The notes under the pieces were generated by a model, which worked only from the letters and a program-made list of their open reading frames with translations, ran no database searches and was not told where the DNA came from. Source: a bacterium (GTDB lineage Bacteria; Desulfobacterota; Anaeroferrophillalia; Anaeroferrophillales; Tharpellaceae). From it: a stretch of DNA of 39,343 nucleotides. The number at the start of each line of letters is the position of its first letter. The first letter of the stretch is position 1. The stretch lies in assembly GCA_029932385.1 (NCBI GenBank), contig JAOZQE010000006.1, positions 1 to 39,343 of the forward strand, given 5' to 3'. Of the stretch, positions 1 to 25,993 are shown one piece after another. The translations under genes were made by a program, and so were the position numbers.

Positions 1-91
1 CTTATATTGAAAATTGAATGACTGCCATAACGGTATTCCACTACACCTCCCCCATATATTCGTTAGATTGGGAATATAGCAGATAAATATG

Positions 92-113
92 ACCACCTCA
101 AAGCGGTGGTTTT
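92..113 (+). terminator. Candidate hairpin terminator, possibly bidirectional
   Basis: ACCACC (92-97) and GGTGGT (105-110) form a perfect 6-bp stem with a 7-nt loop. A short T tract (110-113) follows on the plus strand. It lies just beyond the stop codon of the minus-strand permease gene, so it could end that transcript or one entering from outside the window. The T tract is short and the minus-strand side has none, so the function is only probable. Confidence 0.4.
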
Positions 114-122
114 AACCTTTGG

Positions 123-908
123 TTAGAGACTAATAAAGTAATCCGCAACCATAAAAATACCGGTTATGAAAAGCGCCCAGTAAACAATTTTCTGGAAAAC
201 TTCTGCATTTACCCGATTGTGAATGATCTCTCCGACGAAAATTCCGACAAAAAGAAACGGGAGCATCCAGATTAGATACGTGACATCCGCACTCATTGAT
301 ACGTGACTAAAAATGACACCGGAGACATTATGAAAAAAGGCTTGAAAGGTTGCATCTGTCAAAAATAGAATCGTATTAAGAGTAAGCCATAAAAGGCTCA
401 AAGTTGCCCGAAACGCTCCCTTCTCTGGCAGTTTTTTTGTCGCATAGAAGACTATAAACGGCCCGCCGGTGGCAAATGCCCCATGAATCACCCCCCCTAA
501 GAAGAGCAACAGGTAGTATATCTGCGGCGGCGGATTAAGTCTCGCTTCTGCCTTAAAGTAGGCTTTGCTCAGCTGTAGAACGGCAGTTATAATGATGAAT
601 ATCCCTAAAATCAGTTTCAGCATTTCCGAAGGAAAGTTATTGAAAAAATAGATTCCTAGAGGCATTCCCGCCCCGGCGAGAATGACGATGACAAAAAACT
701 GCCGAAACTGGATCCGTTTAAATTTAGTGCTTACGATATAGAGAGAAAGTATCCACCCGATAATCGCCAACAAAACTTTTGCCTTATGAATGCCAAGCAG
801 ATAGGTGATAAACGGGAATGCGAGGATAGTACACCCGAACCCGGTAATCGCTTCAACCGCATGGGAAATAAAGATTATAAGACCTGTCAAAAGGAACGAG
901 ATATCCAT
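123..908 (-). CDS. TauE/SafE (TSUP) family membrane permease
   Basis: The 261-residue protein is almost entirely hydrophobic, with about eight predicted membrane segments. The N-terminal part reads FISHAVEAITGFGCTILAFP, and a second half-repeat carries LLFLGGVIHGAFATGGPFIV. These two glycine-rich half-repeats are typical of the TSUP family, whose members export sulfite, sulfoacetate or related anions and take up some organic anions. Length is normal for the family. It is the last gene of the minus-strand catabolic block, 70 nt after the GltS-like symporter gene, so it may export an anionic breakdown product. The substrate cannot be read from the sequence. The start is an ATG at 906-908. No frameshift or truncation is seen. 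Confidence 0.85.
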   Translation of the reverse strand: MDISFLLTGLIIFISHAVEAITGFGCTILAFPFITYLLGIHKAKVLLAIIGWILSLYIVSTKFKRIQFRQFFVIVILAGAGMPLGIYFFNNFPSEMLKLILGIFIIITAVLQLSKAYFKAEARLNPPPQIYYLLLFLGGVIHGAFATGGPFIVFYATKKLPEKGAFRATLSLLWLTLNTILFLTDATFQAFFHNVSGVIFSHVSMSADVTYLIWMLPFLFVGIFVGEIIHNRVNAEVFQKIVYWALFITGIFMVADYFISL

Positions 909-978
909 TATATTCCTATTCTAAAACTGTTCAATTTACTGCATTTACAGCCTAATCTACCCTGAAAAACAGCAAAAT

Positions 979-2400
979 TTACTTTGCGTTATCTGCCGGC
1001 AGACTCCTTTTGAAAAAAAACTTCTGCATGATAAACATCAACAGGAAAAACACCACACAGTGAGCAAAAATGATTTTAGCCAGGCCTATGGTTCCGAGCC
1101 AGGGTGCCGTCGGCATCATGGCATACATTATATATAGAGGCATCAACAGAGCAAGCTGAACCGATGTGGCTAATCCGGTTTCTACAGAAACTGTGGTTTT
1201 GAACTCAGGATCAGTGATTCGCAGCAGAATCAAGCTGTTGGACACGGTTCCGGTCAGCATACCAAAAGTTGAGAGAAACCTCTCTAAGCCGAACTTATCC
1301 AGACGCGTTGAAAACCACCACACGGTACTACTGGCAATCACGGCAATCAACACAACCGTAATCAGCATAGGCCCAATATACCTGGTTAAAGCGGCAAATT
1401 TGACCCCCAGAAGGCAGCAAACAATTACATAATCAACGCAGAGGCCGGTGAGCCGGTTGATGGTGCCACTGTCGATCTGATGGCCAGCGCCGCTCTTATT
1501 AATCAGCACTCGCGTCAGAATTCCGCCGAACAGACCCCAGATGTAGATCAGATTAAAGGTCAGCATACCGTATGCAGGCGGCAGAATAAAATACTTAAGG
1601 ACATAACAGATCCCCCAGCTGACGCCGTAAGCTAAGGCTCCTAGAGCAACGTGAAAGGAGAGGGAATCGAGATTGGCGCTGTGAGTTACCTGGTTCCCCA
1701 TCGATTCAGTTTTATCTTTAGCAATTATGCCGCGAAGAAAAGCTTTATCGAGACCATCACTACTGGTGTAAGCGGCAAGCCCCTTGCGAATGCCCCAGTT
1801 AGCAATCGGAACGCCGACAAATGCGGCTACGATATAACCCATCGCCGCGTATGTGACCCCCAGAGTAACCACATCCTGCATCCCGCATTTCTCCCATATT
1901 TGAGCATAGGTAGTTGCGGAGCCTGGACCCCCGGCAAAGCCGATACCGGCCAGAAAACCGGTCGCGGTTTCAAGAGATGCACCGGTTACCGCATTCCAAG
2001 CGGAGATCACCCCAAAACCAATAAGCAGCTGTAACATATAGACGGCGGCGTAAAGTAGCCCAATCCATAAGGTTCCCCGGAATATCTCCCTGCCCATGCC
2101 TTTACCGTCACCATTACCACCCTTGATCGCCGACAACCCGATTAGCGTAAAAGCGAGGCTGAAGAACAGGTTGGTCAGGTTGATAAAGGTACCAAATTCG
2201 ACCCTGACCCAACCGTCCGGACTGGGATAACCGATTACGCCGAGATTGATTAGCAGCATACCGACCAATCCTGCCAAAAGGCTTGAAGGAAACAAGAATT
2301 TCTGGAAAAACGTGACTTTACTTCGGACTACAACTCCAACGGGGATAAGGATTGAAGCCCAGATAAAGGCTATAATATATGGGGTTAAGAGTTTTTCCAT
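979..2400 (-). CDS. GltS-like sodium/carboxylate symporter
   Basis: This 473-residue inner-membrane protein has about ten to twelve hydrophobic segments. It contains the glycine-rich stretch ATGFLAGIGFAGGPGSATTY near residue 150 and a matching GMLTGTVSNSLILLRITDPE in the second half, the pattern of two inverted re-entrant repeats in the glutamate:Na+ symporter (GltS, ESS) family. It is longer than classical GltS (about 400 residues), and many family members at this length are uncharacterised. An AGGAGG-type ribosome-binding site lies directly upstream of the ATG (visible as CCTCC at 2410-2414). It is preceded by a stable hairpin after the ligase gene. In this operon it may import a dicarboxylate or amino-acid-like product of periplasmic hydrolysis; glutamate itself is only one possibility. 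Confidence 0.75.
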   Translation of the reverse strand: MEKLLTPYIIAFIWASILIPVGVVVRSKVTFFQKFLFPSSLLAGLVGMLLINLGVIGYPSPDGWVRVEFGTFINLTNLFFSLAFTLIGLSAIKGGNGDGKGMGREIFRGTLWIGLLYAAVYMLQLLIGFGVISAWNAVTGASLETATGFLAGIGFAGGPGSATTYAQIWEKCGMQDVVTLGVTYAAMGYIVAAFVGVPIANWGIRKGLAAYTSSDGLDKAFLRGIIAKDKTESMGNQVTHSANLDSLSFHVALGALAYGVSWGICYVLKYFILPPAYGMLTFNLIYIWGLFGGILTRVLINKSGAGHQIDSGTINRLTGLCVDYVIVCCLLGVKFAALTRYIGPMLITVVLIAVIASSTVWWFSTRLDKFGLERFLSTFGMLTGTVSNSLILLRITDPEFKTTVSVETGLATSVQLALLMPLYIMYAMMPTAPWLGTIGLAKIIFAHCVVFFLLMFIMQKFFFKRSLPADNAK

Positions 2401-2479
2401 TTGTTAAACCTCCTGGTGTTGGCAAAGAGACGATATCGTAATTTCTAGCAGATGGGCTAAGTACACAATATTGGATTTA

Positions 2480-2501
2480 GACCCCGGAGAATTCCGGGGT
2501 C
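2480..2501 (-). terminator. Strong intercistronic hairpin after the acyl-CoA ligase gene
   Basis: GACCCCGGA (2480-2488) and TCCGGGGTC (2493-2501) are exact reverse complements around a 4-nt loop, giving a GC-rich 9-bp stem 11 nt beyond the ligase stop codon. No T run follows on the minus strand. It may therefore cause partial termination or protect the mRNA 3' end rather than act as a full intrinsic terminator. Confidence 0.5.
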
Positions 2502-2512
2502 CATAACTGTGA

Positions 2513-4081
2513 TTATTCATCAGTGAGGCGATCATAACAACCGCTGGTCAGATCCTCTCTCTCCTGCAGAATAAGAGCTTTCCTGATCTTACCTGTGGGG
2601 GTCGTCGGAAAGCTCTCTTTGTACTCGACATAGCGCGGCACCTTAAAATCAGCAAGATTTTTAACGCAATGGGCAATGATTTCTGCGGGAGGAATTGTCT
2701 CGGAGCTTTCACCCAGGGCCGGAACGATATAGGCTTTAACCTCCTCTTTGCGATCCTGATCCGGAACCGGAACTACGGCAGCAGAGAGAATCTTGGGATG
2801 GCTCATCAGAACATTTTCCACTTCCACGGCGGCAATATTGTCTCCAGCTCGTTTGATCATCTCTTTAATGCGCCCGACGATGTAAAAATAGCCCTGTTCA
2901 TCTTCTCGAAAAAGGTCTCCGGTTCTGAACCATTCACCGGAAAAAGCTGCATCAGTTGCCTCAGGCTTATTGTAATAGCCTACAAACATGCCCGGCCCAC
3001 TAACCCACAGTTCACCGGTCTCCCCTTGCACCACTTCCTGGCCAGCTTCGTCAACGATCTTGACGGTACGAAAGGCGGTCGGCTTGCCGACAGAACCAGA
3101 ACCACTCATATGACCGTCTTCAAGCGGCATAACGATACCAGGCCCGATCTCAGTCATACCGTACCCCTCTCTGAGAGGTGTATTAAAACGCTCTTCAAAA
3201 GCTTTATGAATACCTTTAGGAATCGCACCACTGAAGAGTATTCTCAAGTTGTTTTCCTTATCTTCTGGGTATTCCGGCTGCTTAAAAATCCAGTAGGAGA
3301 GCAGGGCCCAGGATACGGTGATGCCATATTTACGAATAGTCGGCATAAATTTTGACGGACTGTAGCTTCGGGCCACTACCATCTTCATCCCTTTCATAAT
3401 GCACATAAGCAGTTCCCAGGGCGGATCCATATAGTAGAACGGCTCAACACAGAAAAACACATCCCTTTCGCTCATCTTCTGGGCCGCAACCCAAGCTAAG
3501 GTCTGCCAGTATTCGTGCGTCAGCAGACAGCCTTTGGGAAATCCGGTTGTGCCCGAAGTGTATTGAATACTTATCAAATCATCTTCACCAACCTCTACCC
3601 CACTAAACTCTGTCGCAGCGGTCAGGGCAAGACCTGGCAGATTCGGTCCGATGTCACCAGCTTCAACACCAACCGAAAACAGTATCTTAATGTCGGGTGT
3701 ATTATCCTTTACCTGTTTGAAAACCGGTGCGTATTCATCGGCTATAACGAGACCGACAGAGTCAGAATCATTGAGAGCATACTCTAAATCTTCGCCTTGG
3801 AGCCGAATATTTAAAGGCACCGCAACGGCTCCGATTTTAGCCAGAGCCAGCCAGACAAAAATAAATTCAGGGCCGTTGGCGAGCATCATCGCAAAGTGAT
3901 CACCTTTGCTTATACCCGCCTTCTGCAGAATGACAGCATATTGATTAACCGTATCGTTCAATTGTCTGTAGGTATAAGATTTATCCTCTGTAATAAAATA
4001 GAGCATCTCATTACTGGCGAAACGATCCACCGCTTTCTCAAGCAGGGTTGCAATATTCTTTTCTATTCCGTCAATACTCAT
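2513..4081 (-). CDS. Class I adenylate-forming acyl-CoA ligase (CaiC-like)
   Basis: The 522-residue protein shows the full ANL signature set: the P-loop YTSGTTGFPKG at residues 174-184, GYGMTE in the middle, GEWFRTGDLF with the conserved aspartate, and a C-terminal PTTPTGKIRKA carrying the catalytic lysine. Family enzymes adenylate a carboxylic acid and transfer it to CoA in the cytoplasm. Overall flavour is that of crotonobetaine/carnitine-CoA ligases and medium-chain fatty-acid ligases, but the substrate pocket cannot be assigned by eye. It lies 24 nt after the CocE/NonD hydrolase gene, suggesting that it activates the acid released by that hydrolase. The start is ATG with a weakly purine-rich upstream region. 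It is followed by a strong hairpin. Confidence 0.85.
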   Translation of the reverse strand: MSIDGIEKNIATLLEKAVDRFASNEMLYFITEDKSYTYRQLNDTVNQYAVILQKAGISKGDHFAMMLANGPEFIFVWLALAKIGAVAVPLNIRLQGEDLEYALNDSDSVGLVIADEYAPVFKQVKDNTPDIKILFSVGVEAGDIGPNLPGLALTAATEFSGVEVGEDDLISIQYTSGTTGFPKGCLLTHEYWQTLAWVAAQKMSERDVFFCVEPFYYMDPPWELLMCIMKGMKMVVARSYSPSKFMPTIRKYGITVSWALLSYWIFKQPEYPEDKENNLRILFSGAIPKGIHKAFEERFNTPLREGYGMTEIGPGIVMPLEDGHMSGSGSVGKPTAFRTVKIVDEAGQEVVQGETGELWVSGPGMFVGYYNKPEATDAAFSGEWFRTGDLFREDEQGYFYIVGRIKEMIKRAGDNIAAVEVENVLMSHPKILSAAVVPVPDQDRKEEVKAYIVPALGESSETIPPAEIIAHCVKNLADFKVPRYVEYKESFPTTPTGKIRKALILQEREDLTSGCYDRLTDE

Positions 4082-4105
4082 CTTTAGCTCCTTTATATTA
4101 AAATT

Positions 4106-6007
4106 CTATTTATTAGAAACCTGTTTAATAACGGGCAGATCGATAAATGAGGCGTAATCACTGTTTCTGAAGATCGTAACCGTCGGATCCCCTTCCAGGG
4201 GAATACGATCAAAATTGCCTTTGTCAGCACCGGCAATAGCGATACGAATGCGATGTCCTTTTTTAATCAAAACCGAGGTTGGAATCATCTCAAAAGCAAG
4301 TTCCGCTATCTCACCCGGCACTAAAGGCTGAGCATCTTTTTTTACAAAGGAGTGGTACGGGGTAGACTGTTTAATATAAGGGTTCTGCGACTCCTTTCGA
4401 TGGATAACACGCAGCCCACCTTCGGTAATCAACCGGCTTTTTCCGTCTTGATCAACATCTTCAAAGTACGCAATCAGAACCCCATCTTTATGATCGGAAG
4501 ATACATACAGGGTTACAACCGGATGTCCGGTGATCTGCATATCTGTACCTAGAGGCGAACTATCATAGGTCAACATTCTCTTATCCATGTCGCCGCGATT
4601 GTCGTAGTTCAGAACCGGGCCACCAGCACCGGTAGTCCAGCGGCTTTCAGGACCGGTAGTAACGTCAAAATCAACCTTATATTTATCGAAAGCACTATCA
4701 TTAACCGGCCTCTCTGAAGACAACTTAAAACCCTCCTGCAAAAACATACGTAAGCTCCGGGAGCCGGCAGGCGGCCAGACATCGGTCTCCTTATAAACCT
4801 CTTCACCAAGGTTGAAGTAAGTAATGGCTGACCACTTATCAACTCCATTATCCGCCCCCTTCAGATAGTGATCAAAGAAGTCACCGGCCATCTCCCACTG
4901 ATCATGTTCACTCGGTAAAGGAGCCAGAATTTTGTCACTTACTACATAAGGGCTGGCATGTGAACGCCCACCATGGTTAGATCCGAGAATCAGAATTTTC
5001 ATCGGATTACTATAATTGAGAAACTGAAGGATATTGGAGTCTGAAAGCCCACCATCGTACCAACTGCACATTTTAAGCATGGCAACATTGGATTTTTCGA
5101 TTCTATCTTTAAGTCTCACTGTTGAAATATCTAAAGTTGAGATGCCCGAATCACCCCACTCCTGATCAATAAATTCAATCGGAGTCCCTTCTTTAGCCAC
5201 ATCTGAGTTTTGGGCATGCTGCGCGATCGCTTTCGCCAACATCTTCCCATCAGTGTCGGCATCGACCGGTCGAATTGCCCGCCCCAGCATCTGCCACTGA
5301 TTATTATCGAGCATTTTCACATAAGCACCCCACTTGTTAATTACGGCAGCAGCCGAGAGTCCATAGGGTTTGGCATAGGTCTTAAAATGATCGAGATAAC
5401 CGCCACCCCAAGGGAAGATGGCCTTCACCGCCGGATGGTTTTGAGCCGCGAGGAGTTCCGCATTAGTACCGGGATATGATATGCCATAAGCCCCGATCTT
5501 CTGGTTACTCCAAGACTGTTTAATCACCCACTCGGCAACATCGTAATGATCCCGGGCCTCAGTCGGACCCCATTCGATAACGCGGGTCCCGTACGATGCC
5601 CCGGAGCCACGAACATCGACATCAATGATTGCATAACCATGGGAGAGGAGAACCATATCATTGGCATTTAAGAGCGGCAGATCCTGCCACTGCTCAGGAT
5701 TGGGAGCAAGCCCTGGGTTCTCGACTATGGCCTTGCGGGAAGAGCGATAGTAACGGGTTAAATGAAGCAGTGCCGGGATTTTATCACCAGATTTATAGCC
5801 ATCCGGCACTGTAATATCCGCAGCTAATTTAACTCCGTCACGCAAAGTGATGTATAATGATTTCGTCGTTCCCTGATTTTGGGCTCCGGCTGACAGTGGT
5901 AAAAACAGACAAACCAACAGAATGACCGCTAACGACAACGTTATTAATGTTCTGTGATTATAATTTATGCAGTTTCCTTGATTATGGTTGAACTTAATCT
6001 CTTTCAT
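4106..6007 (-). CDS. Exported CocE/NonD family alpha/beta hydrolase
   Basis: Members of this family (S15 X-Pro dipeptidyl-peptidase-like, cocaine esterase-like) hydrolyse esters or acyl-amides. Using the ATG at 6007 (a TTG codon one triplet earlier is less likely), the protein has 633 residues. Residues 18-42 form a signal peptide ending SAGAQ. The predicted catalytic triad is intact: Ser177 in GAYGISYPG, Asp318 in SWYDGG and His345 in SNHGGRSH. A C-terminal beta-sandwich domain of the PepX_C type follows (around residues 400-630, ending with VLIKKGHRIRIAIAGADKGN). The signal peptide puts it in the periplasm or outside the cell. It sits between the amidohydrolase-fold gene (22 nt apart) and the acyl-CoA ligase gene. 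The true substrate is unknown. Confidence 0.85.
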   Translation of the reverse strand: MKEIKFNHNQGNCINYNHRTLITLSLAVILLVCLFLPLSAGAQNQGTTKSLYITLRDGVKLAADITVPDGYKSGDKIPALLHLTRYYRSSRKAIVENPGLAPNPEQWQDLPLLNANDMVLLSHGYAIIDVDVRGSGASYGTRVIEWGPTEARDHYDVAEWVIKQSWSNQKIGAYGISYPGTNAELLAAQNHPAVKAIFPWGGGYLDHFKTYAKPYGLSAAAVINKWGAYVKMLDNNQWQMLGRAIRPVDADTDGKMLAKAIAQHAQNSDVAKEGTPIEFIDQEWGDSGISTLDISTVRLKDRIEKSNVAMLKMCSWYDGGLSDSNILQFLNYSNPMKILILGSNHGGRSHASPYVVSDKILAPLPSEHDQWEMAGDFFDHYLKGADNGVDKWSAITYFNLGEEVYKETDVWPPAGSRSLRMFLQEGFKLSSERPVNDSAFDKYKVDFDVTTGPESRWTTGAGGPVLNYDNRGDMDKRMLTYDSSPLGTDMQITGHPVVTLYVSSDHKDGVLIAYFEDVDQDGKSRLITEGGLRVIHRKESQNPYIKQSTPYHSFVKKDAQPLVPGEIAELAFEMIPTSVLIKKGHRIRIAIAGADKGNFDRIPLEGDPTVTIFRNSDYASFIDLPVIKQVSNK

Positions 6008-6032
6008 CAATAAATTCCCTTTGCTCCAAATA

Positions 6033-6983
6033 TCAACCTAAGTTAAATAGTTGCTGTGCATTATCATAAAGCCACTTCTCTTTGACTTTATCTTTTAACG
6101 GCAGGCCTTTAACTTCGTCGACAATCTGCGTCAGCGGCAACGCCAGCTCTCCAACCCCGGAACCGAATACGATCTGATCCTGCAACAGGGTGTTTGCAAA
6201 CTGTATCAGCATTTCAAAGCCTGATCCCGGCACCGAAAGATATTTAGGACGATGAGAAGAGGTATCGATATAGATATTGCGATGGCGGCGGGCGACACCC
6301 ACCAGCTCCGGCACCCAGGGCCAACCACCACAGGTTGCCACAATTTTCACCTTGGGAAAATCCCGGGCGACTTTATCCAAGTTCCGGGGATGGCCAACTT
6401 CCATAGGCAGTTCGGTATTGTAACTCATTGCCGTATAGCAGAAAACCGGCACATCAAGAGAGGTTGCCAGAGCGTAGCAAGGGTAATAGCGGGGGTCAGT
6501 GGCAGGAATACCCGACTTAAATGAATTAACATGCAGGGCGACAAAACCGGATGATTTAATTGCCTTTTCAACTTCATCAAGAGCCTTATTCGCATCGATA
6601 AAAGGGTTAAACACTGCCGTCCCTTTTTGCTTTTCCGGCACCCGGGCAATGCGCTCGTGAGTTTTATCGATCTCAACATCATCAAGCAAGCCCCACACAA
6701 TTCCAGCCTTATCGAGCTGAGCTTTATATTGTGAATCAGTTGGAGTAATTTTGTCGGCCAGCCCGACAAGATATGTTTTGAATTCGCCAGCGGACAGTTC
6801 AGCCCCCTTTTTTTCAAGATCCTCAAAACTACAGCCCAGAGCATTAGCCCATAGATCTCCGAAGATGTGTCGATAGTTGGCGAGCCCATCTCCTTCACCG
6901 TTCATAACAAAAAAGCTCATATTTTCCGCCAGCTCATCGGCAGTAAGCGGCGCATCAAGCCTTACATCAATTACTTTTTGCAT
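6033..6983 (-). CDS. Amidohydrolase-2 fold protein lacking all canonical metal ligands
   Basis: The 316-residue cytoplasmic protein has the layout of PF04909 TIM-barrel amidohydrolases: a DP..YPCYALATSLDVPV segment like the usual DP...lyeaa..lglPV, then KIVATCGGWPWVPEL, then DQIVFGSGVGELALP near the C-terminus. Each canonical ligand position is replaced. The N-terminal HxH is absent (IDVRLDAP, residues 5-12), the His after the PV strand is Tyr183, the His before GG is Thr217, and the final metal or proton-transfer Asp of the FGSD motif is Gly275. I checked Tyr183 and Gly275 in the nucleotide sequence. It is therefore probably not a classical metallo-hydrolase and may be a binding protein or a changed enzyme. 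The start is ATG with an AGGA upstream. Neighbours are the RND transporter and CocE/NonD genes. Confidence 0.75.
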   Translation of the reverse strand: MQKVIDVRLDAPLTADELAENMSFFVMNGEGDGLANYRHIFGDLWANALGCSFEDLEKKGAELSAGEFKTYLVGLADKITPTDSQYKAQLDKAGIVWGLLDDVEIDKTHERIARVPEKQKGTAVFNPFIDANKALDEVEKAIKSSGFVALHVNSFKSGIPATDPRYYPCYALATSLDVPVFCYTAMSYNTELPMEVGHPRNLDKVARDFPKVKIVATCGGWPWVPELVGVARRHRNIYIDTSSHRPKYLSVPGSGFEMLIQFANTLLQDQIVFGSGVGELALPLTQIVDEVKGLPLKDKVKEKWLYDNAQQLFNLG

Positions 6984-7035
6984 TGTGGTTGTCCTGTTTA
7001 TGTTTTATATGTTTATTGAAATTGTGTTACAATTT

Positions 7036-9357
7036 TTATTCAGACGAACTGCTTTTCGCAGGCGTCAGCCAGCGGGCCAAAGCTGGCAACAGGATAATCG
7101 CTCCAAGCATATTGACCAGGAACATAAAAGTTAACAGAATTCCCATATCTGCCTGGAACTTAAGTGGCGAAAAGACCCAGGTGGCAACTCCAATCGCCAG
7201 CGTCACCCCGGTAAACACCACAGCATTACCCGTATCCTCCAGGGTACGAAAATAGGCCTCATTAAGCTCTACTCCATCATCCATCAATTGAATAAAGCGA
7301 CTATAAATATAGATCCCGTAATCAACCCCGACCCCGACACCGAGGGCAACCACGGGCAAGGTGGAGACTTTCAGCCCGATCCCTAGCAGACTCATCACGG
7401 CATAGCCGAGCAGAGAAACCAGGCCTAACGGCGCAATTATACAGATCAGCGATTTCAGCGAGCGATAGGTGAGAAAGCAGAGAATGATGATCGCCATAAA
7501 GAGGTAGATCAAGATCGGAAACTGCGCTCCAGAGACAACTTCATTGGTTGCCGCCATAACCCCGACATTGCCACAGGCCAACTTAAATTGAAGATCGTCA
7601 AGTCCGTATTCTTCATTGTAACTTTTCACTTCCGCCACAATCCGGGCGATGGTTTCCGCCTTATGATCGGCGGTGTAAATCTTAACCGGCATAACACTGC
7701 AGTCCGGACTGAATAGGCCGCTGCTGGTTGACAACCCTTTAATAGACTGCACCAATACCAACTGATTTCGCGGTAGCACCTGCCATTTGGGATAACCCTC
7801 GTTCCAGCCACCGTTAACCGCCTTGGCAACCCGGGGTAGACTAACGACAGTCAAAACCCCCGGCACATTGCTCATATGCCAGGCGAACCGGTCAATTAAG
7901 TCCATCTTGTTATAGTCGATACAGGCATCCGGCACCGTTTCGACAATAACAGAGATAATATCAACACCGATATAAAAGTGGCTGGTAATCATCCGGCTGT
8001 CTTTATTGTAACGTGAATCAGGACGCAGCTCAGGAATCCCTCGGGCGATATCACCGATCCTAATTTCAGATCCCTTCCAGGCCCCAAAACAGACCAGCAT
8101 AACCGCAATCAGCAACACCACAGCAGCCGGTTTAAACTCCGTCACCTTGGCCACCGTTCGCCAGAGTCCCTGCATCTGCAGGGCCCGTTTCTGAGTTTTG
8201 ACCCGGTATTTAGCTTCATATGTAACATAGGAGAGTAGAAGCGGGAGCAAAAGCAGATTGGTAAAAATTATCACCGCCACACCGAGACTTGCGGTAATCG
8301 CCATCTCCTGAATCATCTGAATATCGATCAGCAAAATAGTAATAAAACCGATGGTATCACTCGCCAGAGCAATACAGCCGGGGATCAACAGACGGCGAAA
8401 GCTGGCCCGGGCGGCGGTTATATTGTCAGCACCATTAAAAACCTCGGCCCGACTACTGCTGACCATCTGCACACCATGACTGATACCGATGGCAAAGACG
8501 AGAAAGGGAACTAAAATTGACATCGGATCGATACCAAAACCCAGAAGCGGCAGCAGACCCAACTGCCAGATGACCGCCGTCAAAGAGCAGGTCAACAGAG
8601 TAACCGTCAGAATACAAGACTGAGTATACCAATAGACCAGAAAACCGGTAATCAGAAAAGCGATACCAAAAAAAAGAATCACCCGTTTTGCACCATCGGT
8701 CATATCGCCGATAAACTTTGCAAAACCGATTATATGGACACTGATCTCATCAGTTTCAAGATTACTTCTGATATTCTCAAGCTGCTTTGCAACCTCAAGA
8801 TAGTCCAAACGTTCACCCGTATCAGGGTTGATATCGAGCAGCTCGGCACTAATAATTGCGGCTGAAAAATCGACCGCGACCAGCTGACCGATAATGTTTG
8901 ATTTAAGGATATTCTTGCGCACCTGCTCAAGTCCCTCAGGAGTAGTCTGAAAATCTGCGGGGACAACCTTACCGCCCGCAAACCCAACTTCAGTAACCTC
9001 GGTAAAACGAACATTGGGAGTGAACAAAGATTTAACTTTTGTGCGATCGACACCGGAAAGATAAAAGACATCGTCGGTAGCTTTTTTGAGGGTGTCGAAA
9101 AAATCTGGTTTAAAAATACTGCCATTTTTAGACTTTAAGGCAATCAATATCTGATTTGCCCCGCCGAACTCCTTACCATGTTTGACAAAGGTCTGCATAT
9201 ATTCATGGTTTAAGGGAAGCAGTTTACTGAAACCGGCATCGATACGCAGCTTAGTTGCAGAATAACCCATAAATATTGTCAGCATTAAAAAAATGGTTAT
9301 AAATAGACGTCGATGTCCGAAGATAATATTTTCCAATCCGGGAATTAAATTTTTCAT
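7036..9357 (-). CDS. MMPL/RND family inner-membrane transporter
   Basis: The 773-residue protein has the two-fold RND layout of the MMPL/HpnN-like group: TM1 at about residues 14-32, a periplasmic loop to about 225, five membrane segments to about 395, TM7 near 412-430, a second periplasmic loop to about 615, and five further segments to the C-terminus. At about 770 residues it is typical of lipid or hydrophobic-compound exporters and shorter than AcrB-type pumps (about 1,030). The second half contains VVALGVGVGVDYGIYIYSRF, matching the conserved GxxxDYxxxxxxR of the family. Its start abuts the stop codon of the YCF48-like gene, so the two are likely translationally coupled. With DUF1302 and DUF1329 proteins it probably forms an envelope-spanning route for a hydrophobic molecule (inference from recurrent co-occurrence). 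Confidence 0.85.
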   Translation of the reverse strand: MKNLIPGLENIIFGHRRLFITIFLMLTIFMGYSATKLRIDAGFSKLLPLNHEYMQTFVKHGKEFGGANQILIALKSKNGSIFKPDFFDTLKKATDDVFYLSGVDRTKVKSLFTPNVRFTEVTEVGFAGGKVVPADFQTTPEGLEQVRKNILKSNIIGQLVAVDFSAAIISAELLDINPDTGERLDYLEVAKQLENIRSNLETDEISVHIIGFAKFIGDMTDGAKRVILFFGIAFLITGFLVYWYTQSCILTVTLLTCSLTAVIWQLGLLPLLGFGIDPMSILVPFLVFAIGISHGVQMVSSSRAEVFNGADNITAARASFRRLLIPGCIALASDTIGFITILLIDIQMIQEMAITASLGVAVIIFTNLLLLPLLLSYVTYEAKYRVKTQKRALQMQGLWRTVAKVTEFKPAAVVLLIAVMLVCFGAWKGSEIRIGDIARGIPELRPDSRYNKDSRMITSHFYIGVDIISVIVETVPDACIDYNKMDLIDRFAWHMSNVPGVLTVVSLPRVAKAVNGGWNEGYPKWQVLPRNQLVLVQSIKGLSTSSGLFSPDCSVMPVKIYTADHKAETIARIVAEVKSYNEEYGLDDLQFKLACGNVGVMAATNEVVSGAQFPILIYLFMAIIILCFLTYRSLKSLICIIAPLGLVSLLGYAVMSLLGIGLKVSTLPVVALGVGVGVDYGIYIYSRFIQLMDDGVELNEAYFRTLEDTGNAVVFTGVTLAIGVATWVFSPLKFQADMGILLTFMFLVNMLGAIILLPALARWLTPAKSSSSE

Positions 9358-9358
9358 A

Positions 9359-10477
9359 TCACTTGCCTTTTACTGGTAGAGTTAAATCTTCACCCAAACC
9401 GAGATCATCTGAACTCAATTTTTTCAAACCAAAAGATCCGGCCAGAATCACCCCACCATCATCCGTTTTTACAGCTTTTAAAATACTCTTGCGATTGGGT
9501 TGCTGTTTAAGAGTAAAGCTTTCCCCCCCATCGTTGCTGACCAGCAGGACACCACCAAGTCCGGTGACAATAATATGCCCGCTATCAAGACACAAGCCGC
9601 GAGTCAGTGACGCCTGAGTTTTAATTTTTATCAGTTTCCAATTCTCTCCGGCATCTTCGGAACGAAACAGGTGACCACGCAGTCCAAAGAAGAGTACCAC
9701 ATCACCCTTAAGAGGCTGGCAACCAAAAAATGAACCGTTGTAAGGTGAAGGCATCGCCATCCAGGTTTTACCTTCATCATCAGAGCGAAATATATTACCT
9801 GCTTCTGCAGCCATGTAGATATATCCATTTTCTGAGGCAATGATCTGATTAAGATGAAAATCCCACATCGGCTTATCCCACTCATCCACACTCCCACTCT
9901 CGGAGGTATCACCATCATCTAAACTGGCACCAAAAGTCAGGGGTTCAAACACTCTTTCATTCCAGGTCTGACCTCCGTCACGGGTCTCCAGATAGAGGCC
10001 GTATGCACCAACCGCAATGCCATAGTCCGCATCCCTGAACCAGACGTCAAACAGCGGACGCTCATCATTGGGATTGTTATAGAGACGTGACCAGGAGTTA
10101 CCGCCGTCATCGGTACGCAAGATTTCTGCATCATGGCCAACGACCCAGCCCAATTTCCGGTTAAGAAAAAAAACACCAGTTAAGGTTGCCCGGGTCGGGA
10201 CATCGACCTGCCTCCAGGTTTTTCCGTTATCACCGGATATAAGGATATGTCCCCTTTCACCAACCGCTACCGCAAAACTATCAATAGAAATACAGTCCAG
10301 AAGCAGTGAATATGGTGCCCGGGGAGCTTTCACAGAGGATTCGTCAGCTTCCTCCAGAGCTGCAGCAGTTGGAACTCCAGCTATTAAATAACTTGCTACA
10401 AACATATATATCAGTAGCAATCTGAAAAATAATTTACCGAGCCGGCAAAGGCCTGAGAGGGTAAACAAAAAATCCAT
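9359..10477 (-). CDS. YCF48/BNR-repeat beta-propeller protein, exported
   Basis: At least six copies of a D-x-G-x-x-W type repeat are visible, for example ISGDNGKTW, RTDDGGNSW, ETRDGGQTW, RSDDEGKTW, RSEDAGENW and VSNDGGESF, each preceded by a G-x-x-G strand. This is the YCF48/BNR propeller pattern, shared with the photosystem II assembly factor HCF136 but widespread in non-phototrophs. I place the start at the ATG at 10475-10477, which has GGAG six bases upstream. The longer frame begins with TTG at 10489. The N-terminus (LFFRLLLIYMFVASYLIAGV) is a signal peptide or anchor, so the propeller is periplasmic. It lies between the DUF1329 and RND genes, a recurring arrangement, and probably scaffolds that transport system. 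No enzymatic function is implied. Confidence 0.8.
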   Translation of the reverse strand: MDFLFTLSGLCRLGKLFFRLLLIYMFVASYLIAGVPTAAALEEADESSVKAPRAPYSLLLDCISIDSFAVAVGERGHILISGDNGKTWRQVDVPTRATLTGVFFLNRKLGWVVGHDAEILRTDDGGNSWSRLYNNPNDERPLFDVWFRDADYGIAVGAYGLYLETRDGGQTWNERVFEPLTFGASLDDGDTSESGSVDEWDKPMWDFHLNQIIASENGYIYMAAEAGNIFRSDDEGKTWMAMPSPYNGSFFGCQPLKGDVVLFFGLRGHLFRSEDAGENWKLIKIKTQASLTRGLCLDSGHIIVTGLGGVLLVSNDGGESFTLKQQPNRKSILKAVKTDDGGVILAGSFGLKKLSSDDLGLGEDLTLPVKGK

Positions 10478-10518
10478 AAGAAGCTCCAAAACAGTTAAAG
10501 GAAAAATTTTAACCAGAA

Positions 10519-10542
10519 GGTGATCAGATTTACCTGACCACC
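10519..10542 (-). other. Intercistronic hairpin between DUF1329 and YCF48-like genes
   Basis: GGTGATCAG (10519-10527) and CTGACCACC (10534-10542) pair over nine positions, one a G-U wobble, around a 6-nt loop in the minus-strand RNA. No T tract follows directly. It may stabilise the highly expressed upstream part of the mRNA or cause partial termination. Confidence 0.4.
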
Positions 10543-10588
10543 CTCCTTTAAAAAGGTTAATATTGAATCTCTTTCCCGAACTACCGAC

Positions 10589-11956
10589 TTAGCGGCGACC
10601 GGATCTACGCAGGGAATTAGGTGAGAACTCACCGCGACGAATCTCAACTTCAAAATCCCACATTTCATCAACTTCATTGCTCAGCTTGTCCGCCATATAG
10701 CGCCCAGCCTGAAGATCATAATGAATCTCTCCAATCGCATAGATCGAAAAAATTTCATAAAAGTTAATGGTGTGAGCTTCAGAAACACGCCAGAGGTCAT
10801 CACGGTTGTCGTATAAATCGGCAACCAGTATCGACCAGGAATCTTCGTCTACATACATTGTACGTCTTTTGTAGATGTGGCTGGTGTTCTCCTTTAACGT
10901 CGCTTCCACTATCCACAAACGATGGAGCTCATAACGCATAGCATCCGGGTTTGGGTGCATAGGAGTCAAAAGTTCTTTATAAGATATCTTCGGGCTCTTG
11001 AATTTGTATGAATTATAGGGAACGTAGAACTCTTTTTTACCTACAAGTTTCCAGTTATAACGCTCGGGACTACCATTGAACATATCGAGTGAGTCGATAG
11101 TCTCAAGGCCGTCACCACCACCGGTCGGAGTGTCAAAAGCGTACTGCGGTGCCCGGCGCACGCGGCGCTGACCAGGATTGTACATCCAGGCTTTACGACT
11201 TTCTTTATTTTGATCCAGGGTTTCATGCACCAGACTGATACTCCCAGCGATCCGGGCCGGGGCCTGATCCTCACTTTTGTAACAGAAGAGCATATTGTCG
11301 AGTTTACTGTCATCCATACCTTCTTGTGAATATGTCATATTGAACAACTCAGTATGCTCACCCAACGTATAACCACCACTACGGGTTACCGGAACATTGT
11401 GATAATGTCGAAACATTTTGACTCCACGCCACCGGGTGAGATGATTCCAGATAACCTCGAGACCATCGTGAGGAATCGGAAACGGGATTCCTTCGCCAAC
11501 ATTTTTGAGGCCGTTACCACCCTCAACCATTTGCGCATTCGAGGCAATTCTTTTGGTCGCATTATAGATACGCTGTGGAGCAGAGCTACTCCGGTGGGTC
11601 GGATAAACGTTCATTTTAAAAGTTGGGTATTTAAGCAGCAGGGCTTTGTGGCCTGCGGTCAGTTTGTCGGCGTACTGATCCATATTTCCAGCAGTTATGG
11701 TAAAAAGAATCTTGTCATCAACATACGGATCGATATGGTGATCGCCAGGCTTATATCCATCTGGCGGAGTCGTAATTCCACCAGTCCACTCAGGAATAGT
11801 GCCATCAGCGTTACCCGCCTTTTCCGCACCAAGAGGGGTAAGATCGTTTCCCAAACGGGCAATCTCTTCCGCAGAGGCCGTAGCCCAGACGTTAGCAACG
11901 CTGCCAACTATCAGTAGTACGGCAACACCTAAAATAACGAGTGATTTTTTTCGCAT
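10589..11956 (-). CDS. DUF1329 family periplasmic protein (LolB/LppX-like fold)
   Basis: The 455-residue protein has a signal peptide (LVILGVAVLLIVGSVANVWA) and then the characteristic start of DUF1329 proteins, ASAEEIARLGNDLTPLGAEK, followed by NADGTIPEWTGGITTPP. Later family-like segments include RHYHNVPVTRSGGYTLGEH, NPGQRRVRRAPQYAFDTPTG and RRTMYVDEDSWSILVADLYD. The family is annotated as outer-membrane lipoprotein-sorting-like and is thought to resemble lipid-binding LolA/LolB folds; no biochemical role is established. A clear AGGAG region precedes the ATG. It is 15 nt after the DUF1302 gene, the usual pairing. An intercistronic hairpin follows. Probable role: periplasmic carrier for a hydrophobic substrate (inference). 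Confidence 0.9.
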   Translation of the reverse strand: MRKKSLVILGVAVLLIVGSVANVWATASAEEIARLGNDLTPLGAEKAGNADGTIPEWTGGITTPPDGYKPGDHHIDPYVDDKILFTITAGNMDQYADKLTAGHKALLLKYPTFKMNVYPTHRSSSAPQRIYNATKRIASNAQMVEGGNGLKNVGEGIPFPIPHDGLEVIWNHLTRWRGVKMFRHYHNVPVTRSGGYTLGEHTELFNMTYSQEGMDDSKLDNMLFCYKSEDQAPARIAGSISLVHETLDQNKESRKAWMYNPGQRRVRRAPQYAFDTPTGGGDGLETIDSLDMFNGSPERYNWKLVGKKEFYVPYNSYKFKSPKISYKELLTPMHPNPDAMRYELHRLWIVEATLKENTSHIYKRRTMYVDEDSWSILVADLYDNRDDLWRVSEAHTINFYEIFSIYAIGEIHYDLQAGRYMADKLSNEVDEMWDFEVEIRRGEFSPNSLRRSGRR

Positions 11957-11971
11957 AGTTTTTCTCCTCTC

Positions 11972-13615
11972 CTAAAATGAATATTTAATATTAGCTGAAA
12001 CAACATCACGATCATTGGTTTTATTGAGATCACCAGCACCAAAGAAATTAGTATATGAAAGATCAAGCTTCCAAGTTTTCTGATAATCGAAAGCAACCCC
12101 GGTAGAAACCGCCTTACGGCGTCTCAAGAAACTGGCACCTCCGGGTGAGATACCGTGCACATCATGTTTCCAGGCAATCCGGGGAGATATGGAGACTGCG
12201 CCGATAGCATTGCTGTAGGTTAATCCCGCCATCGCCCGGTAGCCCCAAGATGTAGCATCAGCATCATTTCCAGGACAATCGAGCGCCAACTCATCGGTAT
12301 CGGGCATATCATCAACTTGCATTACGCCGGCTTCAACCAACATAAACCCGGAAGTTGACCCTAAGGTCGGACCGAGTAATTTGGTTACAGTTGCCTGAGC
12401 CTGATAAACATCACGTTCAATATAACCATGAATCAATTCACCGGATTTCCAAGATCCTTCCATCTGCCCAGGCAGACCTAAAGCTGCCATAATCAGCGGC
12501 TCATCAGCAATCTGCAGAGGCATATCCGGACGATAGGAAATTTCTCCCTGGACCGCAAAACTGCCGATTTGAGTTGAAGCACTTATACCGAATAGCTGAA
12601 TATCCTCGACATATTCTGTCAGATAATGGGCTGTCGCGGGAACCCCGACTATACTAGCTTTCACAGCACTGATAGTGGGAATACGGTTATGATATTTAAG
12701 ATAGAAAAAGCCAAATTCAGTATCATTTAAAGTGGGTGAATACCAGCGCAGAGCTAAGCCATACTGACCGGTGTCTTTGGCTTTTTTTGTCTCTACCCGG
12801 GTAACAGTATAAGGATAAGTTCCCTCGGGCAATCGGCCACCACCCAACGTAATATAATCACCGCCATCCCCGGCATAGTCAAGAGTACTCCAATAGGAAC
12901 CGTTAGGGTCAATATCGGTTTGATGCCAGTCGTATAAATAGAGACCCTCCAGACTAATATTCTCGGTCAGACCAAACGAGGCCCAGACCATTCCTTCAGG
13001 AACCAGAGCCTCTTTTAATTCTGAGCCCGGCAGTCGAAAAGCGGCAACATCAACCGGGTTGATTGCGTTAATACTGTTACCGATAAATGTGCTCTCTCCC
13101 CAACTTACTACCTGATCACCAACCCTGATTTGAGCCGGCATATCACCGAGGTAAAATTCCCACCAGATAAATGTGTCCAGAAGTTTAATATCACTACCAA
13201 CTAGATCTAAGGCATCACTCGAAAGCTCCTGCTTCTCACGACGACCTTTCTCATTTTCATAATCGTAAAAGGCACTGCCTCGAACAAAAATACCGCACAT
13301 ATCACGGTAAGCAATATCCAGTTCACTGGTAACTTTAAAAGCATTACTGACCACACCCTTATCATAGTTCAGATTCCCATCATCGGAATTTACGTCGGTT
13401 CGGTTCCCTCCATTGGCAATACCGATAAGATCTTTATCCCGATCCTGAACCCGCATGGTTACACCGTAAGTCAGGGTCGTATCAAGTCTGCCGACAAAAT
13501 CTCCACTGCGGAAGCCAAAGGCTTCTACCTGGCGTGGATAAATAAACGGTATGGCAGTAACAAGCAGCAACAGGCATGCTGTTATTAGCGAATAACGACA
13601 AAGATTTTGTTTCAT
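11972..13615 (-). CDS. DUF1302 family outer-membrane beta-barrel protein
   Basis: I choose the ATG at 13613-13615, with AAGGAG nine bases upstream. The longer frame starts with GTG at 13687 and has no such site. The 547-residue protein has a signal peptide ending PRQVEA and then FGFRSGDFVGRLDTTLTYG, the typical opening of DUF1302 proteins. The body has the alternating pattern of amphipathic beta strands and ends in VVSANIKYSF, with the terminal aromatic residue recognised by the BAM machinery. The family matches the known motif IRVGDQVVSWGESTFI and the segment NAINPVDVAAFRLPG. It is the first gene of the nine-gene block. It is most likely an outer-membrane pore or adaptor for the operon's substrate; the exact function is unproven. 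Confidence 0.9.
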   Translation of the reverse strand: MKQNLCRYSLITACLLLLVTAIPFIYPRQVEAFGFRSGDFVGRLDTTLTYGVTMRVQDRDKDLIGIANGGNRTDVNSDDGNLNYDKGVVSNAFKVTSELDIAYRDMCGIFVRGSAFYDYENEKGRREKQELSSDALDLVGSDIKLLDTFIWWEFYLGDMPAQIRVGDQVVSWGESTFIGNSINAINPVDVAAFRLPGSELKEALVPEGMVWASFGLTENISLEGLYLYDWHQTDIDPNGSYWSTLDYAGDGGDYITLGGGRLPEGTYPYTVTRVETKKAKDTGQYGLALRWYSPTLNDTEFGFFYLKYHNRIPTISAVKASIVGVPATAHYLTEYVEDIQLFGISASTQIGSFAVQGEISYRPDMPLQIADEPLIMAALGLPGQMEGSWKSGELIHGYIERDVYQAQATVTKLLGPTLGSTSGFMLVEAGVMQVDDMPDTDELALDCPGNDADATSWGYRAMAGLTYSNAIGAVSISPRIAWKHDVHGISPGGASFLRRRKAVSTGVAFDYQKTWKLDLSYTNFFGAGDLNKTNDRDVVSANIKYSF

Positions 13616-13748
13616 TTGACTTGTCTCCTTTCTAGGCAAAAGATTATTAGCTAAAACGTTTTCTTCTTTGCTGGATTTAACGTTCACTTTCTAAAATACA
13701 AACTGCGGTTCTGATTGATCTAATTATAAGCCCCCCCCTTAAATCTAA

Positions 13749-13777
13749 TTGATTAACTAAATACTAACTAATAAATT
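13749..13777. promoter_or_regulatory. Candidate TetR operator, direct-repeat copy 1
   Basis: This AT-rich 29-bp element starts TTGATTAA and ends ACTAATAAATT. It resembles the element at 13841-13867 and lies where the -35 region of the TATAAT at 13723-13728 would be, a suitable place for a repressor. Assignment to the adjacent TetR protein is an inference. Confidence 0.35.
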
Positions 13778-13840
13778 GAGTAAAACATTAACCCTCTCCA
13801 GCTCTCCAAATTATAAGGTATCCCCTACCAATTTGATTTA

Positions 13841-13867
13841 TTGATTAATTGCTTACTAATAAAAATT
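13841..13867. promoter_or_regulatory. Candidate TetR operator, direct-repeat copy 2
   Basis: TTGATTAA at the left, TACTAA in the middle and AAATT at the right repeat the order seen at 13749-13777, about 90 bp away, with a short gap in the alignment. The sequence is so AT-rich that part of the similarity could be chance. Confidence 0.3.
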
Positions 13868-13943
13868 ATAAAACGCAAAAATTATTTTCACTCTTTAAAC
13901 AATATTATGACCAACTACGCCAATAAAGGACCCACCAACGAAA

Positions 13944-14549
13944 TCAACGCCTTTCATCAAGACCGAGCAGATCATAGATATTTTTTTTCATTGCTTGAGT
14001 AATCTGAGCAGTATAGGGGTTATCCGGCAGAGTACTACGAAAGTATCCATAGCCCTCTAGAACAGCAAAAATTATAGTGGCTACTTCCTTCTTGTTATCT
14101 ACTTTGACAACCCCTGCCTTTTCAGCCAGTTCAATTTCTAAGGCACAAAAATCTATCAAGCCCCGGTTCAGTTCCTGCAACCGTTCCCAAACTTTCTCAT
14201 TTCTGAGCCCTAAAGCGTAAATAGACCAAAACACCCTACCACGTTTTGGCAGATTGTCAGAATGCTCAAAAACAGCGTTTATCAAAAAATATAGCCGCTC
14301 ACGCGGATCAGAGCAACCACTCAAAAAAGACTGATATGCTTCCAGAGCTCTTTCAAGAAGATAGTCTACAAGCTCAAAAATCAAATTATCTTTGGTCCCG
14401 AAATAGTGTATCAAAAGGCCTGAATTAACTCCCATACGATCTGCAATTTTACCAATCGTAGTTCCCATAAAGCCTTCCTCATCTACAACTTTATAGGCAC
14501 ATCTAAGTATTTCCGGTTTTCGAATGTGCGATATGCTTTTGCGACCCAT
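13944..14549 (-). CDS. TetR/AcrR family transcriptional regulator
   Basis: The preferred ATG at 14547-14549 has AGGGAG nine bases upstream and gives 201 residues; the longer frame opens with GTG at 14582. Residues 12-60 form the TetR helix-turn-helix, with GTTIGKIADRMGVNSGLLIHYFGTKDNLI read in part as helix 2-turn-recognition helix followed by the usual YF..K. The rest is an alpha-helical ligand-binding domain, whose size is normal. It lies upstream of, and in the same direction as, the nine-gene block, separated by about 330 bp of AT-rich DNA, which makes it the natural local regulator. An acyl-CoA or the operon's hydrophobic substrate is a plausible inducer, but nothing in the sequence proves this. 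Confidence 0.9.
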   Translation of the reverse strand: MGRKSISHIRKPEILRCAYKVVDEEGFMGTTIGKIADRMGVNSGLLIHYFGTKDNLIFELVDYLLERALEAYQSFLSGCSDPRERLYFLINAVFEHSDNLPKRGRVFWSIYALGLRNEKVWERLQELNRGLIDFCALEIELAEKAGVVKVDNKKEVATIIFAVLEGYGYFRSTLPDNPYTAQITQAMKKNIYDLLGLDERR

Positions 14550-14582
14550 ACTTTTAAACTCCCTGATCTCTCCCCTTCTCAC

Positions 14583-14607
14583 ATAGATTAAACATCCACT
14601 AATCTAT
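14583..14607. promoter_or_regulatory. Inverted repeat, candidate autoregulatory operator of tetR
   Basis: ATAGATTA (14583-14590) and TAATCTAT (14600-14607) are perfect 8-bp inverted arms separated by 9 bp, a geometry typical of TetR-family operators. It covers the expected -10 region of a promoter whose -35 is TTGACA at 14624-14619 on the minus strand, so binding would repress tetR. Confidence 0.45.
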
Positions 14608-14799
14608 CTAAAATAGCTTGTCAAGCTTTTTTATTAAACGATCACTAATTTAATTCACGCTAAAAAACTACAACCAAGATTAAATGACTACGGTTTTTCA
14701 TTTACGACGAAAAAATTTGCTGGTCAGCTTGAATAGTTTTCCTGCTTGTTCTATTCCAAATTGAGATATTATGGAAAAAAAGTCTTAAAAGAAAAACTA

Positions 14800-14828
14800 T
14801 TGACTTTTTCAGCCATTTTATTTATGTG
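14800..14828 (+). promoter_or_regulatory. Candidate sigma70 promoter for the TonB receptor gene
   Basis: TTGACT at 14800-14805 and TATGTG at 14823-14828 are separated by 17 bp. The -35 is good and the -10 is mediocre. Transcription from about 14835 would give a leader of roughly 205 nt that contains the hairpin and terminator listed next. Confidence 0.4.
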
Positions 14829-14875
14829 GGCACTGGTTGTTAAATAGTGTGAAGCGAAATCTCAGCTAAGAAGGT

Positions 14876-14895
14876 TGAGAAAACAGTTTTTCTCA
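14876..14895 (+). other. Leader hairpin upstream of the TonB receptor terminator
   Basis: TGAGAAAA (14876-14883) and TTTTCTCA (14888-14895) form a perfect 8-bp stem with loop CAGT. It lies in the untranslated leader between the candidate promoter and the terminator and may be part of an attenuation device. Confidence 0.4.
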
Positions 14896-14937
14896 TCAAG
14901 CAACTTTTTAAAGATACGATTTACAGGGTAATCTGCG

Positions 14938-14993
14938 ACCACGAAGGTCGGCTGGTTCACAGTATGTGAGCTACCGGCTTTCGTGGTTTTTTT
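14938..14993 (+). terminator. Intrinsic terminator inside the TonB receptor leader
   Basis: The outer stem ACCACGAA (14938-14945) pairs with TTCGTGGT (14980-14987). Inside it GCTGGT pairs with ACCGGC and TCACA with TGTGA around a 3-nt loop. Seven T residues (14987-14993) follow. No plus-strand gene lies upstream, so the terminator sits in a 5' leader, 48 nt before the receptor start codon. This is the layout of an attenuator or riboswitch expression platform. Confidence 0.7.
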
Positions 14994-15040
14994 GTTTTCC
15001 AGAGTAACCCTCTTTATCAGCATCTCAGGAGTCAGCTTGT

Positions 15041-18379: not shown

Positions 18380-18396
18380 AATTATTGAGTCCTTTC

Positions 18397-20790: not shown

Positions 20791-20797
20791 TTTTGCC

Positions 20798-21469: not shown

Positions 21470-21482
21470 ATTGATGTTTTCC

Positions 21483-22577: not shown

Positions 22578-22797
22578 TATCGATGATCTCCTGGAGCAGC
22601 GCCAAACTCTTTTGGGCCTCTTCAGTATCGATTTTATGGATGGCAAAACCGGCATGACAAAGGAGATAGTCATCAAGACTGACGGCTTCATCGAGCAGGT
22701 CAAGCGACACCTCACGTTTAGTCCCGCCGATCTCAATGACAGCCAGACAGTCATCTTCTTTAAAGGCGATAATCCGCCCGGGAAAACTTATGCACAT
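22564..22797 (-). CDS. hypC: Hydrogenase maturation chaperone HypC
   Basis: The 77-residue protein begins MCISFPGRI, with the essential cysteine directly after the initiator methionine, which binds the iron of the Fe(CN)2CO precursor with HypD. It also has the conserved VSLDLLDEA segment and the C-terminal GYVLVHAGFAI-like DYLLCHAGFAIHKID. Length is normal for HypC/HupF/HybG proteins. It overlaps hypD by 14 nt and starts 1 nt after the hypA stop codon. Only one HypC-type chaperone gene is seen in the window, so it probably serves this single hydrogenase. Confidence 0.97.
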   Translation of the reverse strand: MCISFPGRIIAFKEDDCLAVIEIGGTKREVSLDLLDEAVSLDDYLLCHAGFAIHKIDTEEAQKSLALLQEIIDNEIY

Positions 22798-22798
22798 A

Positions 22799-23146: not shown

Positions 23147-23148
23147 TT

Positions 23149-23634: not shown

Positions 23635-23639
23635 ATCGC

Positions 23640-24305: not shown

Positions 24306-24314
24306 TACAGGCTC

Positions 24315-25988: not shown

Positions 25989-25993
25989 TTTAT

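Follow-up and report, generated by a model that had tools for sequence, protein, structure and literature searches.

The stretch of DNA analysed here, referred to as the window, is 39,343 nucleotides long and constitutes the entire contig JAOZQE010000006.1 (C141) of an uncultured 2.35 Mb genome from the Desulfobacterota family Tharpellaceae (GCA_029932385.1, hereafter G000). It carries nine intact open reading frames (ORFs) that run in one direction on the reverse strand, from position 13615 down to 123, and encode a four-gene envelope cassette (DUF1302, DUF1329, YCF48, and RND proteins; the quartet), an amidohydrolase-like protein, a CocE/NonD hydrolase, an acyl-CoA ligase, a GltS-like symporter, and a TSUP permease. 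Comparison with related genomes indicates that these nine genes are a recent mosaic and not a conserved pathway, with three units that recur separately elsewhere. We tentatively read the locus as a mosaic catabolic operon under a TetR-family regulator, in which an AmeABCD-type cassette is joined to a separately evolving amidohydrolase–ligase catabolic cassette, a scheme to which, taken as a whole, we give slightly less than even chances. The operon probably degrades an ester, and possibly a sulfur-bearing one. The combination is new and its parts are known, the best lead among them being the under-described amidohydrolase-like family, which is marked by a GWPW motif.

Profile matches bear out all nine genes on the reverse strand, in the order and with the family names that an initial annotation had given them. 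The features of the locus are as follows:

13944..14582, reverse strand: TetR-family regulator, BetI-like, upstream of the operon and co-directional with it (Pfam TetR_N 6e-10, TetR_C_37 2e-10; NCBIfam BetI below cut-off)
11972..13615, reverse strand: DUF1302 outer-membrane protein, AmeA-type (PF06980 3e-162)
10589..11956, reverse strand: DUF1329 periplasmic protein, AmeB-type, LolA-like, with a signal peptide (PF07044 3e-147)
9359..10489, reverse strand: YCF48/BNR-repeat periplasmic protein, AmeC-type (PF14870, PSII_BNR, 3e-21)
7036..9357, reverse strand: HAE3/MMPL RND transporter, AmeD-type (PF03176 1e-30, TIGR00921 1e-44)
6033..6983, reverse strand: Amidohydro_2 protein without metal ligands, with a GWPW motif and no signal peptide (cytoplasmic) (PF04909 1e-25)
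4106..6010, reverse strand: exported CocE/NonD serine hydrolase (S15 + PepX_C; TIGR00976 1e-91)
2513..4081, reverse strand: AMP-forming acyl-CoA ligase (PF00501 2e-74)
979..2400, reverse strand: GltS-like Na+ symporter of a divergent subfamily (PF03616 8e-13)
123..908, reverse strand: TauE/SafE (TSUP) anion permease (PF01925 3e-23)
1..14841, no strand: segment common to contig JAOZKP010000039.1 of a congener (G010), comprising the whole of that 14,841-bp contig, with the same first base as the window, 9 mismatches, and 0 indels

The ORFs are tightly spaced, with intergenic distances of 1–112 bp across the set (52 bp at the RND–amidohydrolase junction), and no convincing terminator was found between the nine genes, terminator-like matches being as frequent as expected from shuffled sequence; we infer a single transcript. 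For DUF1302, the ATG at 13615 gives a clean signal peptide, and the GTG at 13687 is the start of the longest ORF. No operator palindrome was found in the interval between the TetR and DUF1302 genes, and neither RNA elements nor a tRNA integration site were found.

The initial annotation treated the nine genes as one conserved module, a view that the distribution of the genes contradicts. Among 59 relatives searched, all nine genes were not found together in any independent lineage, the sole other carrier being G010, and at high identity the amidohydrolase and CocE genes (and, where sampled, the GltS and ligase genes) also occur only there. A conserved nine-gene order was therefore rejected, the nine being together only in two near-identical contigs. 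SecD of G010 is 87% identical to that of G000, the two belonging to the same genus but to different species; set against this divergence, the near-identity of the shared contig points to either a recent transfer or a misbinned G010 contig, and the data are compatible with both. Contamination of the G000 contig was rejected, as the SecD it encodes matches that of another congener (G005) at 90% identity, and the presence of the module in G000 is secure because its contig also bears such core genes. Searches for transposon ends found no direct or inverted 12-mers common to the left 600 bp and 14401–15100, and a foreign composition was rejected since tetranucleotide distances do not separate the module. 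At the syntenic site in a further congener (G004), the module is absent, as is the adjoining [NiFe]-hydrogenase operon. In the window, this operon is complete (17369–27205), comprising structural and maturation genes (HypE/F/B/D/A, HycI, cytochrome b, and the large and small subunits). Just past the segment shared with G010, a TonB-dependent receptor gene (15041–17269, plug domain under the Pfam cut-off) lies divergent from the module.

The first four genes form a contiguous DUF1302, DUF1329, YCF48-like, and HAE3 RND run in the order of AmeABCD, and are the known AmeABCD ("nanopod") cassette for hydrophobic compounds. The AmeABCD system of Castellaniella defragrans, which mediates efflux of apolar monoterpenes, comprises these four families in identical order, including an HAE3 RND protein, and sits in a catabolic island (PMC6394551); the window quartet, in contrast, is followed by the amidohydrolase-like, CocE, ligase, GltS, and TSUP genes, and export has been shown for AmeABCD only. 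The "nanopod" cluster of ORM2a (Ca. Anaerobenzenivorax), a Desulfobacterota hydrocarbon degrader, similarly contains porin-like, DUF1329, YCF48, and MMPL genes (PMC13101534), but it has extra universal-stress and hypothetical genes and a benzene context, and no attached hydrolase/ligase set is described. In P. putida, PP_0765/PP_0766 and PP_2018/PP_2019, which encode DUF1302/DUF1329 proteins and partners, are required for growth on the ester surfactant Tween 20 (PMC10866462), although they form two separate loci and no linkage to ligase, GltS, or TSUP genes is described. The quartet had been called known but functionally obscure; the cassette is indeed known, and it is less obscure than this suggests. 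Castellaniella with ameABCD deleted tolerates monoterpenes less well and accumulates more Nile Red, which favors export (PMC6394551), and a related cluster is strongly expressed in a Desulfobacterota strain during methanogenic benzene degradation, with the direction of transport left open (PMC13101534). Outer-membrane uptake by the quartet, as previously proposed, is not established, and by analogy with AmeABCD, the single functional study, export would be favored instead.

Quartets recur in the genus and order, but their partners differ, examples being an oxidoreductase fusion with another ligase, or SDR/epimerase genes. G000 itself has four copies of DUF1329, the three paralogues lying on contigs C18, C46, and C152. 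Six quartets are followed by a protein of ~980 residues, which in the one scanned joins an aldehyde:ferredoxin oxidoreductase to an iron alcohol dehydrogenase (AOR–ADH fusion); the remaining proteins are 83–98% identical to it or to one another, and at two quartet loci a different AMP-ligase (33–34% identical) comes after the fusion. At such loci (L049:1435-4377, L059:7943-10897, and L043 and L044 on C18 and C46 of G000), the fusion would be an acid-to-alcohol or alcohol-to-acid enzyme in a single chain. The closest quartets to that of the window (G001:C163/C182; DUF1302 55–57% identical) adjoin SDR and epimerase genes, and the window RND protein is 68% identical to that of G001:C163, compared with 55–56% to those of AOR-linked quartets. 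At these two loci (L056:141-9369 and L055), the genes linked to the quartets encode SDR, 3-beta-HSD-like epimerase, and possibly ketosphinganine-reductase-like proteins, which hints at a lipid role rather than a catabolic one for this subtype. None of the other quartet loci in the genus, family, or order carries GltS, TSUP, and this ligase, so that conservation of these three with the quartet does not hold; conversely, ligase, amidohydrolase, and TSUP genes occur together in a genome without DUF1329 (see below). Many quartet contigs stop shortly after the RND gene, so the absence of a gene there is weak evidence, and absence from genomes is better.

The amidohydrolase-like protein has lost all of its metal ligands (HxH to RLD, H to Y, H to C, and D to G), leaving none of the HxH on beta-1, the His on beta-5 and beta-6, and the Asp on beta-8 of a functional metal-dependent amidohydrolase. 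It instead belongs to a GWPW subfamily of Amidohydro_2, with GWPW after strand 6, no HxH, and a TIM-barrel fold. Across 20 aligned family members, HxH occurs in none and GWPW in all; every metal ligand is gone in the window, L078, L096, L068, L109, Bosea, and Rhizobium proteins, and the other aligned members keep one to three. The earlier label of a dead amidohydrolase is correct as to the ligands, but the gene shows conservation rather than decay, and the protein is not simply dead: a pseudogene was rejected given the conserved motifs and the 60% identity between different orders, which shows that the gene is under selection. An AlphaFold2 model based on a five-sequence alignment is a TIM barrel (pLDDT 86), whose best match in the Protein Data Bank is 3irs, of unknown function (TM 0.67), followed by LigJ/LigY and decarboxylases. 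That protein, the Amidohydrolase_2 member BB4693 (3irs/3k4w), resembles the window protein in fold and in its NWPW/GWPW segment, but unlike it retains the beta-6 His. The family is widespread: in Desulfobacterota and Proteobacteria its members accompany the same acyl-CoA ligase, and in Chloroflexota they accompany other CoA-thioester genes. Judging solely from its neighbors (CoA ligases, crotonases, CoA transferases, and MaoC-like genes), the protein may act catalytically on an acid or a CoA thioester without a metal; a lyase role is speculative.

The partnership with the ligase is seen in a Desulfobacterales metagenome-assembled genome (contig JALVSJ010000005, L078), where one run comprises an XRE-cupin regulator, the amidohydrolase (60% identical), TRAP DctP-DctQ-DctM, the ligase (66%), and a TSUP protein (29%). 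The L078 cassette thus shares the amidohydrolase, ligase, and TauE-family genes with the window, but TRAP DctPQM replaces GltS, XRE-cupin replaces TetR, no CocE gene is nearby, and there is no DUF1329 in the genome. Sharing of the pair is notable because ligase homologues are so rare: across 395 genomes of the phylum, the only other one at E ≤ 1e-130 is in G010. Around L078 taxonomically, one further amidohydrolase homologue was found, on a short contig without the ligase. Plasmid-borne relatives of the ligase accompany an amidohydrolase relative in Bosea (43% identical, 12 kb apart), Paracoccaceae La 6 (41%), Pseudosulfitobacter (40–41%), Paraburkholderia PREW-6R (40%), and Sulfitobacter alexandrii (39%), whereas those of Ciceribacter, Azospirillum, and Nonomuraea have none alongside. 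The pair often has enoyl-CoA hydratase, ABC importers, or amidases nearby, the last in Pseudosulfitobacter, Sulfitobacter, and L096. Across these loci, the pair persists while the importer and hydrolase vary. The window ligase is closest to crotonobetaine/fatty-acid-type NCBIfam models, every one below cut-off. Separately, a recurrent proteobacterial set (L121:4281-11383 and L127) combines an aldehyde dehydrogenase, an acyl-CoA ligase, an FAD amine-oxidase-like protein, and a GWPW amidohydrolase, with an aminotransferase also present in L121, and suggests an amine or omega-amino-acid pathway for this ligase family.

The CocE/NonD protein scores 308.6 bits against TIGR00976 (cut-off 66.3) and has a signal peptide, as judged by eye. 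Alignment to cocaine esterase places its nucleophile elbow at GISYPG, its Asp in SWYDG, and its His in GSNHG, and with these catalytic motifs intact, the enzyme looks active.

The GltS-like protein is rare, being found in 11 of 247 genomes (E 1e-30), including G000 and G010, and the window copy is a weak family match (48 bits). A TauE-family gene adjoins its relatives in L103, L106, and L107, and Xsc (sulfoacetaldehyde acetyltransferase, above the equivalog cut-off) is adjacent or one gene away in L101 and L107. Of the nine other genomes with a GltS-like gene, four have Xsc, compared with 18 of 245 (P = 0.002, without correction for phylogeny). L107:4525-9792 (G151:C72) contains GltS-like, Xsc, pyridoxal-phosphate decarboxylase, and TSUP genes, with acetate kinase further along, and L101:5568-10156 (G022:C435) contains GltS-like, Xsc, and aminotransferase genes. 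The GltS-like proteins of these two loci are candidate sodium-coupled importers for cysteate, taurine, or similar amino-sulfonates, and the GltS–TSUP pair is plausibly sulfonate-linked. Among the papers searched, no precedent was found for a GltS–Xsc–exporter set. Acesulfame clusters of Bosea/Chelatococcus provide a precedent for an importer, hydrolase(s), and a TauE/SafE exporter of a sulfur-containing anion (PMC10413263), but they differ in their cytoplasmic hydrolysis, unrelated hydrolases, and lack of a CoA ligase. Sulfoacetate and taurine catabolism (Xsc, TauE; SauCD) likewise includes export by a TauE-family protein and activation of a sulfo-acid with CoA as steps (PMC12890257, PMC10413263), although SauCD is ADP-forming and the window ligase AMP-forming. 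Since linear alkyl sulfosuccinates are reported to be broken down anaerobically, which has been attributed to ester cleavage (PMC5445686), and the acesulfame clusters are known, a sulfonated ester is chemically reasonable.

In our preferred mosaic scheme, a hydrophobic ester (or amide) would reach the periplasm, the quartet moving either this parent compound or the released alcohol, inward or outward. The CocE/NonD enzyme would cleave the ester in the periplasm, and the GltS-like symporter would bring in the released small acid, which the ligase would convert to its CoA thioester. The amidohydrolase-fold protein could then act on the acid or thioester as a metal-independent lyase, isomerase, or decarboxylase, and TSUP would export the released anion. 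The most likely acid would be a sulfonated carboxylate, such as an ester of the sulfosuccinate or sulfoacetate type could supply, and the anion leaving the cell would then be sulfite or a sulfonate; this identification is the weakest step and we regard it as doubtful. No dsrA was found in the 13 genomes of the genus, so sulfite, if released, would not be respirable, and its export would make sense. The initial annotation is partly supported: the observation itself is confirmed, the gene families are consistent with a hydrolase that is exported, uptake of an acid, its activation with CoA, and export of an anion, and its suggestion of a sulfonate or sulfite gains independent support from the GltS-like relatives that adjoin TSUP and Xsc and from the second lineage in which the amidohydrolase–ligase pair adjoins TSUP.

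Several points weigh against this scheme and its sulfonate step. The full nine-gene set is known from two near-identical contigs only. The window GltS-like protein is only 31–36% identical to its sulfonate-linked relatives, and its TSUP protein only 29% to that of L078, in a broad family with numerous copies in each genome and substrates that are hard to predict from sequence (PMC5840216). No recognised desulfonating enzyme was found in the window and no Xsc in G000 or sampled congeners, so another desulfonation step would be needed if the acid were sulfonated. In Alphaproteobacteria, the amidohydrolase–ligase pair occurs with polyamine-/peptide-type ABC importers and, at some loci, with enoyl-CoA hydratase, aminotransferase, or aldehyde dehydrogenase, and no TSUP is annotated.

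These Alphaproteobacterial neighbors and the adjoining amidases, together with the breadth of the TSUP and GltS families and the nearest, sub-threshold ligase models, would suit a sulfur-free catabolism, to which we give a substantial minority chance. Here CocE would free a mono- or dicarboxylic acid, GltS would import it (or glutamate/aspartate), and the ligase would activate it, while TSUP moves an unrelated anion out or in and the quartet handles the ester. Such a reading leaves unaccounted for the recurrent GltS–TSUP(–Xsc) association and the TSUP gene that neighbors the amidohydrolase–ligase pair in two lineages whose importers differ. The quartet might alternatively export a toxic hydrophobic compound, as in Castellaniella, with the hydrolase and ligase inactivating it rather than feeding growth. 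The ameABCD deletion phenotype and the presence of a TetR regulator, typical in efflux operons, are consistent with such detoxification; it is nevertheless unlikely, as the CoA ligase and importer point to catabolism, and quartet genes are strongly expressed for growth on benzene in Desulfobacterota and needed for use of Tween 20 in P. putida. Finally, the quartet and the five genes that follow it have different phylogenetic histories and are found apart elsewhere, and could be independent units that became adjacent merely after recent transfer. Their single strand, short gaps (including that at the RND–amidohydrolase junction), lack of terminators above chance, and joint presence in contigs of two species make this very improbable. 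In its most specific form, the mosaic operon would encode a new anaerobic route: a sulfonated ester would be cut in the periplasm, its sulfo-acid imported by a GltS-type sulfonate symporter and converted to the CoA thioester by an AMP-forming ligase dedicated to such acids, a metal-free enzyme of the amidohydrolase fold would carry out a desulfonation or rearrangement, and sulfite would leave via TSUP. This version is a long shot.

A vague nine-gene guess is thereby replaced by three separable units. The most valuable of these is the widespread metal-site-less amidohydrolase-fold family that travels with one acyl-CoA ligase, and for which a solved structure (3irs) of unknown function exists. 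If the acid is a sulfonate, then the GltS-like symporters would represent a new class of sulfonate importer, and the anaerobic route for ester-type sulfonates, reported for sulfosuccinates (PMC5445686), would gain candidate genes.

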